The translations under genes and the position numbers were made by a program. Of a stretch of DNA of 64,000 nucleotides, positions 18,886-53,715 are shown piece after piece; the stretch's first letter is position 1; each line of letters begins with the position of its first letter. The notes under the pieces are model-generated. The model was given only the letters and a program-made list of their open reading frames with translations. It searched no databases and was not told the origin of the DNA. Source of the stretch: Clostridium sp. 12(A) (GTDB lineage: Bacteria; Bacillota; Clostridia; Lachnospirales; Lachnospiraceae); assembly GCA_000526575.1 (NCBI GenBank), contig JAGI01000001.1:124001-188000 (forward strand). The letters are read 5' to 3'.

Positions 18886-19108
18886 GCTGTGGCATGATAG
18901 CGTTGAAGCGTGAGGTTGCTGCTTGTATAAGCAGGTTTTCCGCGGAGCGAATGTCAAGTTAGGAAACTGGCGACAAGTCACTGTACAATTTAAAACTCTG
19001 CAATTGAAAGAGAAAGTCTGTGTGAGGTCCTGGAGGACACACACGGGAACGTGTACAGTCACCGCTTGTCGTACTTCTATTAAGTGCGAAAAGGAGGCGA
19101 CTTTTTTT
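18886..19108 (+). promoter_or_regulatory. Structured 5' leader of the S10 operon
   Basis: About 220 untranslated bases. A long-range helix closes the element: CGACAAG (18971) pairs with CTTGTCG (19065-19071), and ACTGTAC (18980) pairs with GTACAGT (19053). Inside lie a compound hairpin GTGTG...GTCC-TGGA-GGAC...CACAC and ACACG-GGAA-CGTGT. A ribosomal-protein autoregulatory leader is the natural reading. Leader classes for S10 operons have been described in Clostridia, but I could not match this one to a model. Confidence 0.65.
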
Positions 19109-26148: not shown

Positions 26149-26550
26149 ATGACAATGAGCGATCCAATCGCAGATATGCTTACAAGAATCCGTAACGCAA
26201 ATACTGCAAAACATGATACAGTAGATGTACCTGCATCCAAGATGAAATTAGCTATTGCTGATATCCTTGTGAAAGAGGGCTACGTTAAAAAATATGATAT
26301 CGTAGAAGACGGTGCATTCCAGACAATCCGGATTACCTTAAAATACGGTAAAGACAAAAACGAAAAAATCATCACAGGTATTAAGAGAATCTCCAAACCA
26401 GGTTTACGTGTATACGCAAACAAAGAGGAGTTACCGAAAGTACTTGGCGGTTTAGGAATTGCTATCGTCTCCACAAACCAGGGCGTAATTACTGATAAAG
26501 TAGCTCGTTCCATGGGTGTAGGCGGAGAAGTTCTGGCATTCGTTTGGTAA
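26149..26550 (+). CDS. rpsH: 30S ribosomal protein S8
   Basis: S8, 133 aa, primary 16S binder and, in E. coli, the spc operon repressor. [20 protein letters not shown] at the start and [20 protein letters not shown] near the end are canonical. AAGGAGG precedes the ATG. Confidence 0.98.
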
Positions 26551-26740
26551 TTAACAAAAAGGAAACTCCATCGCCACTAAGCTCGTGGAAAACCTCGCTA
26601 TACCCAGTAAAGCGGGGCACGCTGAGTGCCGGGGAGTGCTTTCGCACGTAAGCGTCTAAAGAACAGACGCTGAGTGCTCAATGCATCTGAAAACAGAGAG
26701 GACACAGGTTCCTCTCCGAGAATTTAAGGAGGTAAACGGC
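26551..26740 (+). promoter_or_regulatory. rpsH-rplF gap carrying structured repeat A, copy 1
   Basis: 190 untranslated bases in a stretch where neighbouring gaps are 15-25 bases. The segment 26565-26686 closely resembles 32414-32510 before rpmJ. Visible structure: GTGC-TTTC-GCAC, then AGCGTCT-AAAGAAC-AGACGCT (perfect 7-bp stem), bracketed by AGTGC-type sequences. No promoter is evident, so the element lies within the operon transcript. Confidence 0.6.
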
Positions 26741-27283
26741 ATGTCACGTATCGGAAGAATGCCTATCGCGATTCCAGCAGGCGTAACTGTAACAATCGCA
26801 GAAAATAATAAAGTGACTGTAAAAGGTCCTAAGGGAACTCTTGAGAGAGATTTACCTGTAGAGATGGCTATCAAAGAAGAAGATGGTCATATCGTAGTTA
26901 CAAGACCAAATGACTTAAAGAAAATGAAATCCTTACACGGTCTGACAAGAACACTGGTAAACAACATGGTTGTTGGTGTTACTAGCGGCTATGAGAAGAA
27001 GCTTGAAATCAACGGTGTTGGTTACAGAGCTCAGAAGCAGGGCAACAAGCTGATCCTGTCTCTTGGTTATTCTCATCCAGTAGAAATGATCGATCCAGAA
27101 GGCATTGAGTCTACAATGGAAGGTCAGAACATCATTTTCATTAAAGGTATCGATAAAGAAAAAGTTGGCCAGTACGCTGCTGAAATCAGAGATAAGAGAA
27201 GACCTGAACCTTATAAGGGCAAAGGTATTAAGTATGCTGACGAAGTTATCAGACGTAAAGTTGGTAAAACTGGTAAGAAATAA
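26741..27283 (+). CDS. rplF: 50S ribosomal protein L6
   Basis: L6, 180 aa, near the factor-binding site. The start [17 protein letters not shown] at ATG 26741 has AAGGAGG 9 bases before it. Conserved [21 protein letters not shown] and the C-terminal [15 protein letters not shown]. An upstream in-frame extension would run into repeat A and is not part of the family. Confidence 0.98.
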
Positions 27284-31980: not shown

Positions 31981-32199
31981 ATGTCAAAAGCAGATGTTAT
32001 TGAAATTGAAGGAACCGTTGTGGAAAAACTTCCCAATGCCATGTTCCAGGTTGAGCTGGAGAATGGTCATCAGGTATTGGCCCACATCAGCGGCAAGCTC
32101 CGTATGAACTACATTCGTATTTTACCAGGAGATAAGGTAACGATCGAGATGTCCCCTTATGATTTAAGCAAGGGAAGAATCATCTGGAGAGACAAATAA
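31981..32199 (+). CDS. infA: Translation initiation factor IF-1
   Basis: IF-1, 72 aa, binds the 30S A site during initiation. Entire OB-fold present: [64 protein letters not shown] precedes the ATG. It is the last gene before an internal promoter for the rpmJ-rplQ segment. Confidence 0.98.
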
Positions 32200-32278
32200 G
32201 GCATTTATTTGCCGGATAGAACCCATTTTACCATGACACACCAGGGTAAAGGGTTAATAAATATATAGGAAAAAGCGC

Positions 32279-32307
32279 TTGCATTTTTGCATGATTAGTG
32301 GTATAAT
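32279..32307 (+). promoter_or_regulatory. Promoter of the rpmJ-rpsM-rpsK-rpsD-rpoA-rplQ operon
   Basis: TTGCAT (32279-32284), exactly 17 bases, TATAAT (32302-32307). It gives the alpha operon its own transcript, beginning near 32314 with a leader of about 228 bases. Confidence 0.82.
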
Positions 32308-32313
32308 GCTGGA

Positions 32314-32541
32314 GCGACTTTGTTGAAATACTGGGTGTATATTGTCTGTAAGACAGCACTGGTTTTATATAAAACACACTGCGGGTATACTCAGAAGGCT
32401 CTTTGCAAGATGAGTCTCCATCGTCACTAGGCTCGCAAGAGAACTCGTCAAGTGTCGGGGAGCGCTTTCGCACGTAAACGTCTAGAAGACAGACGCTAAG
32501 TGCTCCATGCGAAAGAGCGCATAACGGAAAGGAGAATTGCT
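32314..32541 (+). promoter_or_regulatory. alpha operon leader with structured repeat A, copy 2
   Basis: Untranslated leader before rpmJ. 32414-32510 matches the rpsH-rplF element: CTCCATCG.CACTA.GCTCG at its 5' edge, then GTCGGGGAG, GCTTTCGCACGTAA, ACAGACGCT and AGTGCTC. Compared with copy 1, about 25 bases are missing from the middle. ATGC-GAAAGA-GCGCAT closes the 3' side, 20 bases before the rpmJ site. A leader with autoregulatory function is plausible. Confidence 0.6.
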
Positions 32542-32655
32542 GTGAAGGTTAGATCATCAGTCAAACCGATTTGCGAAAAATGCAAAATCATCAAGAGAAA
32601 AGGCAGTATCAGAGTAATCTGTGAAAATCCTAAGCATAAGCAGAGACAAGGTTAA
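32542..32655 (+). CDS. rpmJ: 50S ribosomal protein L36
   Basis: L36, 37 aa. GTG start at 32542 after AAAGGAGAATTGCT; product begins [15 protein letters not shown] and ends KHKQRQG. Zinc ligands are present (CEKC, a third Cys, and His in the tail), so this is the zinc-binding form. Confidence 0.97.
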
Positions 32656-32683
32656 AAATCATTAATGGAGGTGTAATACACAA

Positions 32684-33052
32684 ATGGCTCGTATTTCAGG
32701 TGTTGATTTACCAAGAGAAAAACGTGTTGAGATCGGCTTAACTTATATCTACGGTATCGGTAGAACAAGTTCAAACCGCATTCTCACAGAAGCAGGCGTT
32801 AATCCTGACACTCGTGTTAAGGACTTAACAGATGACGAAGTTAAAAGACTTGCAGAAGTAATTACTGGAACTCAGACTGTTGAAGGTGATTTACGTAGAG
32901 AAATCGCTATGAACATCAAGAGACTTCAGGAAATCGGTTGCTACCGCGGAATTCGTCACAGAAAGAGCCTTCCTGTTCGTGGTCAGAAGACTAAGACCAA
33001 CGCAAGAACAAGAAAAGGCCCAAGAAAAACTGTAGCAAATAAGAAGAAATAG
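32684..33052 (+). CDS. rpsM: 30S ribosomal protein S13
   Basis: S13, 122 aa, bridges the 30S head to the 50S and contacts tRNAs with its basic tail. [23 protein letters not shown] and [22 protein letters not shown] are diagnostic. 28 bases after rpmJ. Confidence 0.98.
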
Positions 33053-33261
33053 GCATTGAACACTTAGTGAGGTATCTCACGAACTTAGTGTGACAGCCGT
33101 TCTTTGACCGCAAGGGAAAAGAACATCAATATTAACAACAATACAGAATCACGTTACATGTTTTAAAAACAGGAATAACAGGATTCGATATTCGTACCCT
33201 GCGCCGGCTCTTACGATGAGGGCAGGGCGGAGCAAGTAAAAAGAAAGTAGGTTAGTTTAAA
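33053..33261 (+). promoter_or_regulatory. Structured rpsM-rpsK gap (motif B, copy 2)
   Basis: 209 untranslated bases where most genomes have few. At 33058-33126: outer stem ACACT/AGTGT, inner GTGAG-GTAT-CTCAC, 3' GAACTTA, then GTGTGACAGC, then hairpin GTTCTTT...AAAGAAC. This parallels the rplW-rplB gap. A second hairpin CCCTGC...GCAGGG lies at about 33198-33228. No promoter is evident. Confidence 0.5.
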
Positions 33262-33663
33262 ATGGCTAAAAAAGTGTCCACTACTAAAAAAGTGACAAAA
33301 AAGCGCGTAAAGAAAAACGTTGAACGCGGACAAGCACATATCCAGTCATCTTTTAATAACACAATCGTGACATTAACAGATACACAGGGTAATGCATTAT
33401 CATGGGCAAGTGCTGGCGGTCTGGGATTTAGAGGTTCAAGAAAATCTACTCCATATGCAGCTCAGATGGCGGCAGAAACTGCTACTAAGGCGGCTCTTAT
33501 ACATGGTTTAAAATCAGTAGACGTTATGGTTAAAGGTCCTGGTTCAGGCCGTGAAGCAGCTATTCGTGCACTTCAGGCATGCGGATTAGAAGTAACCAGC
33601 ATTAAGGATGTAACACCAGTTCCACATAATGGTTGTCGTCCACCAAAACGTAGAAGAGTCTAA
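33262..33663 (+). CDS. rpsK: 30S ribosomal protein S11
   Basis: S11, 133 aa, forms the platform side of the mRNA exit. Lys-rich N-terminus, then [56 protein letters not shown], and the terminal [15 protein letters not shown]. Confidence 0.98.
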
Positions 33664-43575: not shown

Positions 43576-43596
43576 TATTAGAAATTTATATAATAA

Positions 43597-43886
43597 AGGC
43601 ATTGAAGAGAAGAGTAAACTATTTGCGCTTTTACAGAGACCTCAAGATGGTGAAAATGAGGAAAGTTATAAAATGGTTGAATATGGCCTCTGAGCTGCGT
43701 ACCGAAACACATTGTTTAGGCTACGACGGGTGCACCCGTTACAGTGATAGACTATCGATGAATCATTTCTCGTCCGTAGTTGATAAGACCTGTATCGTGA
43801 GGTATAGGTGAATTTAGGGTGGTAACACGAAGCTTCGCTCTCGTCCCTGAAAAAGAAATTTTTCAGAGAGGAGGGCTTTTTTATTT
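43597..43886 (+). promoter_or_regulatory. T-box riboswitch, Met specifier
   Basis: Leader between a consensus promoter and metG. It contains the T-box core AGGGTGGTAACACG (43816-43829) and a terminator whose arms are CCTGAAAAA / TTTTTCAG plus flanking GTCC...GGGC, ending in TTTTTT (about 43837-43884). By alignment with the tyrS leader in this window (both have GAGCTGCG six bases after the specifier), the specifier codon is ATG at 43683-43685. Uncharged tRNA-Met would stabilise the antiterminator and switch on the synthetase and the GNAT gene behind it. Confidence 0.93.
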
Positions 43887-53399: not shown

Positions 53400-53715
53400 C
53401 TACAAAGGATTGCCATGCAATCCGGAGTATAAGAAAAGGCTATGAAAAGAAAGAGTAGCATTTTCGATTCCAAACAGAAAGATGCCGGTTGATGAGAGGC
53501 TCGTGGATAGAAAGTGTGAATACGTCTTGGAGCTGCGCACCAAAACTTTAACAGGAGTAGGCTGCGACGGAAAGCACACCGTGATCAAGTGCAAGGGTAT
53601 CGCCAAGGCCGTACCCGATGAGGTAGACAGTGTGAGCTGTCTGCGAACTTAAGGTGGTAACACGAGATTTGCTCTCGTCCTTTTGAAACAAAAGGGCGGG
53701 AGTTTTTTATTGTTA
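53400..53715 (+). promoter_or_regulatory. T-box riboswitch, Tyr specifier
   Basis: Contains AAGGTGGTAACACGAG (about 53651-53666) and a terminator CTCGTCCTTTTG / CAAAAGGGCGGGAG followed by six T (about 53673-53709). The specifier codon TAC lies at 53521-53523 in the loop before GGAGCTGCG. tyrS starts 80 bases downstream, which agrees with the codon. Confidence 0.95.

Follow-up and report, generated by a model that had tools for sequence, protein, structure and literature searches.

REP and BIME palindromic repeats come with RAYT transposases, and MITE-type repeats such as ERIC, RUP, and Correia with terminal inverted repeats and a target site duplication, often TA. ERIC, RUP, Correia/NEMIS, and CIR are units of about 100-200 bp whose transcripts form stem-loops; ERIC is co-transcribed, with orientation-dependent destabilization of the upstream mRNA reported, and CIR RNA is described as arms and linkers rather than as one long stem (PMC2229807, in part). 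REP elements are short palindromes that occur in groups, many of them plausibly transcribed and mostly downstream of genes, and their dimers are mostly head-head or tail-tail (PMC3733652, in part). SRPS of Clostridium cellulolyticum are stem-loops between genes; a U-run is absent from 28 of 33, and most are tied to 3' processed ends; rpsP and dnaK are among their carriers, and the stability of the stem-loop goes with transcript ratios (PMC4423207, in part). Within the Clostridium SRPS set (cip-cel and others), predicted cases include ribosomal protein operons (PMC8219983, in part).

The window considered here is the whole analyzed stretch of 64,000 nucleotides from Clostridium sp. 12(A), a member of the Lachnospiraceae, and it holds three copies of a repeat within 6.6 kb of the S10-spc-alpha cluster. 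Comparison shows these copies to be members of a Lachnospiraceae repeat family that forms hairpins and is both mosaic and non-autonomous; its units of about 45 nt combine a common head with interchangeable stems. Small interspersed hairpin repeats are a known kind of element; the common head with free, covarying stems, together with confinement to ribosomal operons in one genus, sets the present family apart. In contrast to ERIC, RUP, Correia, and CIR, the present family has no terminal inverted repeats as read by eye (the window copies run from CTCC to AATGC or CATGC, and the units of another genome, G062, run from TAAAAAATAG to CATAGC plus one base), but it does have a repeated head and covarying stems, and in the host genus it is found only in ribosomal operons. 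Unlike REP dimers, its units are arranged head-to-tail, and the palindrome ends of the window copies lack a GTAG/CGTC tag by the same kind of reading, CGTC occurring only inside hairpin 2. As in SRPS, copies 1 and 3 are stable intra-operon stem-loops that lack a U-run and sit close to where the upstream cistron ends, whereas copy 2 is not placed in this way; the family also occurs, like SRPS, near dnaK (genome G080 and stretches L254 and L268, gene names by reading). SRPS are not described as a single mobile repeat family in the consulted parts of PMC4423207 and PMC8219983, whereas the present family is mobile. The S10-Clostridia leader (RF03136), found at 18895-18976 at the Rfam gathering score, is a structured RNA of the same cluster, but it is an operon leader, and RF03136 gave no match at the window copies. 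T-box leaders were recognized at the same score at 43593-43851 and 53433-53685. No description of the present family was found among the open-licence papers listed.

The features of the window copies are as follows.

26566..26684, + strand: copy 1, in the rpsH-rplF gap, starting 15 nt past the rpsH stop
26566-26636, + strand: copy 1 hairpin 1 (predicted fold)
26638-26684, + strand: copy 1 hairpin 2 (predicted fold)
26600..26623, + strand: 24-nt insertion within copy 1 hairpin 1, with relatives' + copies lacking it
32416..32511, + strand: copy 2, in the infA-rpmJ gap, 3' of a separate conserved leader
32416-32462, + strand: copy 2 hairpin 1 (predicted fold and comparison)
32464-32510, + strand: copy 2 hairpin 2 (predicted fold and comparison)
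32425..32454, + strand: copy 2 hairpin head (match to the looser CTC form of the pattern, G000:C1:156425-156454)
33052..33126, - strand: copy 3, inverted, in the rpsM-rpsK gap, holding a canonical head
33061..33090, - strand: canonical head of copy 3, CACTA-RRY-TCG-N7-CCTC-RYY-AAGTG (exact pattern match, G000:C1:157061-157090)

Gene names in the window are the author's reading of open reading frames and protein letters. Copies 1 and 2 each consist of two hairpins with a short GCTTTC as the joint, and their second hairpins end in GAGTGCTCAATGC or AAGTGCTCCATGC. There are 0 nt between rpsM and copy 3, whose first G is also the last letter of that gene's stop codon. A preliminary description of this DNA had reported a single element in two copies with common blocks in a fixed order, the second copy lacking about 25 central bases and both forming an AGCGTCT-type hairpin ahead of ribosomal genes. 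Both copies lie about where it had placed them (26566-26684 and 32416-32511), and the blocks do follow the claimed order; the remaining points need revision. There is a third, inverted copy at 33052-33126, each copy folds as two hairpins, and the difference in length is a 24-nt insertion in copy 1, which rules out copy 2 as a deleted form of copy 1. A position ahead of ribosomal genes is no rule either: copies 1 and 3 follow closely on the end of the gene before them, only copy 2 is in a 5' leader, and copies near rRNA genes precede 16S or follow 16S or 23S. Its remark that no described element has such a sequence agrees with Rfam and with the literature searched.

With copy 1 as the query against the 4.6-Mb genome, BLAST recovered copy 2 at 87% over 60 nt (E 4.7e-14); its sole other match was 18 nt long (E 0.94), and copy 3 was missed. 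BLAST and two covariance models gave no further convincing copies in this genome, just three short matches, none better than E 0.36. The folding energy of copy 1 lies well below that of its shuffles (z -3.3), as does that of copy 3 (z -4.3), with whole-copy folds of -46.9 and -26.7 kcal/mol, respectively. Copy 2, at z -1.0, folds on its own no better than chance, so its structure rests on comparison. Stable hairpins could point to intrinsic terminators or attenuators within the operon, yet this reading is hardly credible, since no terminator-like site was found on either strand in 26450-26760 or 32190-33280. Rfam 15 at the gathering score returned no family at the window copies, nor in two relatives examined; matches below that score, mostly to microRNA or snoRNA families, were not taken as the answer.

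Neither the + copies in G003 and G020 nor the aligned rpmJ copies contain the 24-nt insertion of copy 1. Its complement resembles a GC-rich module between the hairpins of the inverted rpsM-rpsK copies (G021, G007, G010, and G022) and also resembles short dispersed matches within the genus. A 25-nt sequence closely resembling the 24-nt insertion occurs elsewhere in the genus (L022, L025-L029), in intergenic positions and, in one case (L025), within a long reading frame. By its distribution, the insertion appears to be another small repeat sitting inside the main one.

The hairpins of this mosaic family share one head, CACUA-RRY-UCG-N6/7-CCUC-RYY-AAGUG, whose loop is 6 nt (94 heads) or 7 nt (47 heads) long where 4-9 nt were allowed. 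Of 141 heads, 129 form Watson-Crick pairs at all three inner positions, and all eight purine/pyrimidine combinations occur. Pairing was observed at the three positions in 136, 138, and 136 of the 141 heads, versus 76, 84, and 92 expected if the sides were independent; because the pattern demands no pairing, this agreement is covariation, with the caveat that an exact pattern selects for intact copies and that the copies have ancestry in common. Each subfamily carries this head on a stem of its own, and adjacent heads are 44-48 nt apart in 16 of 17 cases. Read on the strand opposite to that of copies 1 and 2, the constant letters of the loop are GAGG...CGA and might pair as two G.A pairs plus a G-C pair. 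This strand folds better in 136 of the 141 heads (mean -7.5 versus -4.9 kcal/mol), and among the matches listed 38 of 56 codirectional contexts have it as the transcribed strand (p 0.010). Copy 3 has the GAGG...CGA orientation and copies 1 and 2 the opposite one; in hairpin 2 of copies 1 and 2, a longer regular stem replaces the canonical loop. ANTAR double-hairpin targets follow an A1/G4 hexaloop rule. By reading, the present heads have no A1/G4 hexaloop, and membership among ANTAR targets is not claimed.

Within the host genus, 25 genomes were searched with R2, a 47-position model of the terminal hairpin with 4 base pairs that was trained mainly on ribosomal copies. R2 gave 47 matches at E <= 0.5. 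At E <= 0.0022, all 41 matches are ribosomal: 34 are no more than 12 kb from rplF, and the other 7 occupy rRNA spacers, where they follow 16S in G001 (3) and 23S in G010 (1) and G022 (3), the rRNA ends having been recognized by eye. One rRNA region contains a run of N, and several of the rRNA copies are at contig ends. Above E 0.0022 there are 3 matches in the r-protein cluster and 3 elsewhere, namely a different-looking hairpin (E 0.0175), a match inside an open reading frame (E 0.0187), and a third at E 0.47. Since R2 was trained mostly on ribosomal copies, the confinement was retested with the family-wide head pattern. This matched 16 times in 8 of the genus genomes, with 9 matches in the cluster, 7 in rRNA spacers, and none elsewhere; a reversed-pattern control gave 0 matches. 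Old insertions inherited in common by relatives make such counts non-independent, and state changes are a better measure of events. In the host genus, the family is apparently confined to the spaces between S10-spc-alpha cistrons and to rRNA spacers, as far as these searches detect it.

The state of each site was followed across 24 of the 25 genomes, i.e., the genome of the window (G000) and 23 relatives, by measuring the gaps of the cluster; G005, with no rplF match, was left out. In G016 the 5' part of the cluster is missing and the rpsM-rpsK gap contains N, leaving 23 readable genomes at that gap. Most gaps are steady to a few bases, and five show differences of tens of bases, up to about 100 nt. 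An empty rpsH-rplF gap of 66-67 nt is found in 12 of 24 genomes; this gap carries a + element in 4 (G000, G099, G003, and G020), an inverted element in 7, and an inverted remnant in 1. At the infA-rpmJ gap, 14 of the 24 genomes have the full element, 7 have hairpin 1 alone, 2 have other sequence, and 1 has none. An inverted element, full or shortened, occupies the rpsM-rpsK gap in 11 of the 23 readable genomes, and the rpsJ-rplC gap has an element in a single genome, G013. On a tree of the 24 genomes built from 18 genes, the rplF gap requires at least 7 state changes and the rpmJ gap 3; the rpsM-rpsK gap (23 genomes) requires 5. Comparing genomes shows units that appear, vanish, and give way to others at a given intergenic site, in either orientation.

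Close relatives differ at the rpsH-rplF gap. Genomes G003 (+), G004 (inverted), and G018 (empty) are pairwise 0-2 of 150 nt apart on each coding side of this gap. G000 (+) and G021 (empty) are 1 and 0 of 150 nt apart on the coding sides and have 99.1% identity over the concatenated genes. These states of the gap reflect fast, local turnover. The cleanest pair of a filled and an empty gap, G003 and G018, differs in length by 100 nt and has no target duplication beyond 1-2 bp. Inverted copies come after TA, which lies within the stop codon at two sites and is also found after 16S. The elements are dispensable at each site, the rplF gap being empty in half of the genomes. This last point bears on a reading of the elements as an r-protein autoregulatory leader, in which one r-protein would bind the RNA before rplF and before rpmJ and repress the operon. 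The positions before r-protein genes and the covariation agree with such a leader, but we consider it very improbable, given the empty rplF gaps, the differing orientation at the same site, the copies located within the operon or in rRNA spacers, and the unrelated neighbour genes elsewhere. On orientation and dispersal, a pure r-protein leader is rejected, neither position nor orientation being fixed.

Selection on the fold was examined at the orthologous rpmJ site, with 13 sequences (12 distinct, 262 cells), G099 being left out as identical there to the window's own genome. Paired cells make up 93.1% of the total, versus 89.6% in shuffles, and both sides have changed in 8 of 22 pairs, versus 3.0 in shuffles; neither value was reached in any of 500 shuffles. 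The count of further pair types was reached by 11 of 500 shuffles, and with slid partners 38-47% of cells pair. Where most sequences have a Watson-Crick pair, GU exceeds AC on the sense strand by 21:6 for the + copies at rpmJ (p 0.006), by 6:2 for inverted copies at rplF (p 0.29), and by 3:0 for inverted copies in the rpsM-rpsK gap (p 0.25); this wobble test counts cells rather than independent events, its structures are predicted from the same sequences, and the last two sets are small (7 of 8 inverted rplF copies and 6 of 11 rpsM-rpsK copies). Consensus energies on the sense and antisense strands are -21.3/-9.4 (rpmJ), -43.2/-26.9 (rplF), and -24.2/-21.2 (rpsM-rpsK). Even with structures derived from the antisense strand, GU cells number 13 on the sense strand versus 9 on the antisense strand, 6 versus 2, and 3 versus 0. 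By these measures, the transcribed strand appears to be the one that better keeps the fold, whatever the orientation of the element. The sense-strand wobble bias favours an RNA role over a DNA hairpin, and a fold kept at the RNA level is supported by the comparison.

Outside the host genus, the family behaves differently. At E <= 0.1, a model designated R1 matched 24 of 99 relatives; G062 alone accounts for 29 of the matches, several head-to-tail and some tandem, and 38 genomes of other families of the order gave none. The head pattern matched 39 of 250 genomes of the family, with 0 matches for the reversed-pattern control, and at least 120 stretches in the GTDB collection. In titles covering 80 of these at least 120 stretches, most name Lachnospiraceae genera and some only Clostridia, Eubacteriales, Ruminococcus, or uncultured bacterium; the head pattern also matched 1 viral contig. 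Among the matches listed, the stretches hold 124 clusters, of which 86 lie between predicted open reading frames (codirectional 56, convergent 15, divergent 15), 17 are in a predicted open reading frame, and 21 are at edges; 13 of the 124 have two or more heads. The upstream stop is the closer one in 31 of the 56 codirectional clusters, again among the matches listed, which is no clear stop-codon preference. Occurrence in all gene arrangements without clear proximity to stop codons fits neutral dispersal.

The neighbours of these copies, named from a reading of protein letters, are mostly unrelated genes. Among the stretches listed they include rplF (L207 and L220), infA (L202 and L301), tpi (L302), and dnaK (L254 and L268). 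Copies also lie between pgk and tpi in G082, between ssb and rpsR in G083, and between grpE and dnaK in G080. In G028, from another genus, 3 copies of 16S were found, and the element immediately precedes 2 of them. Given the mostly unrelated neighbours and varied arrangements, the family is, outside the host genus, a general dispersed repeat; it is multicopy in some hosts, mostly intergenic, and variable among close relatives, as are general mobile palindromic repeats. The preliminary description had proposed either a regulatory or processing RNA motif or a small mobile repeat settled in operon gaps. The second proposal is now well supported by a site that is filled, empty, or inverted among close relatives and by dispersed and tandem copies elsewhere. 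The first gains partial support from the confinement of genus copies to ribosomal operons, the covarying stems, and a wobble bias toward the transcribed strand that is significant in one of three sets. More copies and covariation, which that description had named as support, do exist; outside the genus the copies are scattered, which it had associated with a plain dispersed repeat.

The family might be a purely selfish small mobile repeat without function, its confinement to ribosomal operons being only apparent. Strong transcription could expose single-stranded DNA to insertion, or old copies could survive in slow-changing regions and spread between species by recombination across conserved r-protein genes. 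Copies that are dispersed, partly tandem, in both orientations, and variable among close relatives are what such a repeat would leave, as are mostly non-ribosomal neighbours among the at least 120 stretches of other genomes, and Y1 transposase genes are present in all 3 genus genomes searched (G000, G013, and G022). Decaying copies, however, would not be expected to show compensatory changes at the orthologous rpmJ site or a sense-strand wobble bias, nor head stems that covary in all eight combinations, although an exact pattern does favour intact copies. We hold the purely selfish reading, the main rival to a processing role, as a tentative possibility, short of an even chance.

It is quite unlikely that the copies are the ends of an HUH (Y1) transposable element of REP/RAYT- or IS200/IS605-like type, in which a transposase would read the head as single-stranded DNA. 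Hairpin-bearing units with a constant head and variable stem but without clear terminal inverted repeats would suit such ends, as would the near absence of target duplication between G003 and G018, and RAYT-sized Y1 frames occur in G062, G080, G082, and G083. Against this, and in contrast to REP/RAYT systems, the motifs sought revealed no copy within about 1.5 kb of the five RAYT-like genes inspected in G062, G082, and G083. In the window's own genome, the contig that carries the copies has none of the three Y1 genes, which are on another contig, and the wobble bias points to RNA. The single Y1 transposase match of RAYT-like size in G062 is a 279-aa frame (L319, G062:C46:82724-83056) with no flanking repeat.

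We consider it an evenly balanced proposition that the family is a small mobile hairpin repeat whose RNA hairpins would serve as processing or stability elements between ribosomal cistrons. On this account, for which SRPS are the known precedent, RNA ends between cistrons would be marked or protected by the hairpins; transcript cleavage or protection, like an influence on ribosome stoichiometry, would be a conjectural consequence. Against it count the dispensability of the elements at each site, the dispersal in other genera, and the place of copy 2 in a 5' leader together with its chance-level fold. A more elaborate form, which is doubtful, would make the head a binding or cutting site for an RNA-binding protein or RNase of Lachnospiraceae and the repeat a portable RNA-processing cassette, so that mobile DNA would tune the stoichiometry of ribosomal transcripts. 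Insertion in either orientation, in r-protein gaps and rRNA spacers, would then rewire the cutting and stabilization of transcripts, and the stoichiometry of ribosomal transcripts would differ between species with nearly identical r-protein genes. Ribosomal operons are usually deemed the most conservative part of the genome; here their gaps host mobile hairpin turnover, and the species concerned show no more than 2 differences per 150 bases in the flanking gene ends. If the hairpins do process ribosomal transcripts, the natural filled, empty, and inverted species pairs would provide a test of how intra-operon hairpins set r-protein dosage. The common head with free stems also offers a clean bait for a new RNA-binding protein or transposase.

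Other sequences are found in and around the same gaps. Inserts of roughly 80-110 nt with different sequence occur in the secY-adk gap of G001 and G002 (L129 and L130) and in the rpsJ-rplC gap of G001, G002, G012, and G015 (L126, L129, L130, and L132), indicating that r-protein gaps collect several kinds of insert. At about 33190-33232, the rpsM-rpsK gap contains a second module (TTCGTACCCTGC...GGGCAGGGCGGA) that is cleanly present or absent among relatives. A hairpin noted by eye at 26690-26718 lies just 5' of the rplF ribosome-binding site, whatever the state of the element, and its arms differ by relative (GAGAGGA/TCCTCTC, GAGGGAA/TTCCCTC, and others). In the infA-rpmJ gap, a promoter-like pair was seen by eye within 32280-32412, 5' of copy 2, and was not listed by the scan of this region. 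The leader in this region (GGAGCGACTTTGTTGAAATACTGGGTGTAT...GGTATACTCAGAAGGCTCTTTGC) gave no Rfam match; it is strongly conserved in the 24 genomes, with variable paired loops, and is a candidate r-protein leader of the alpha operon. Lastly, of the 3 16S copies of G013, two agree in the leader directly before 16S (L042 and L059), whereas the third has a long replacement there (L053).
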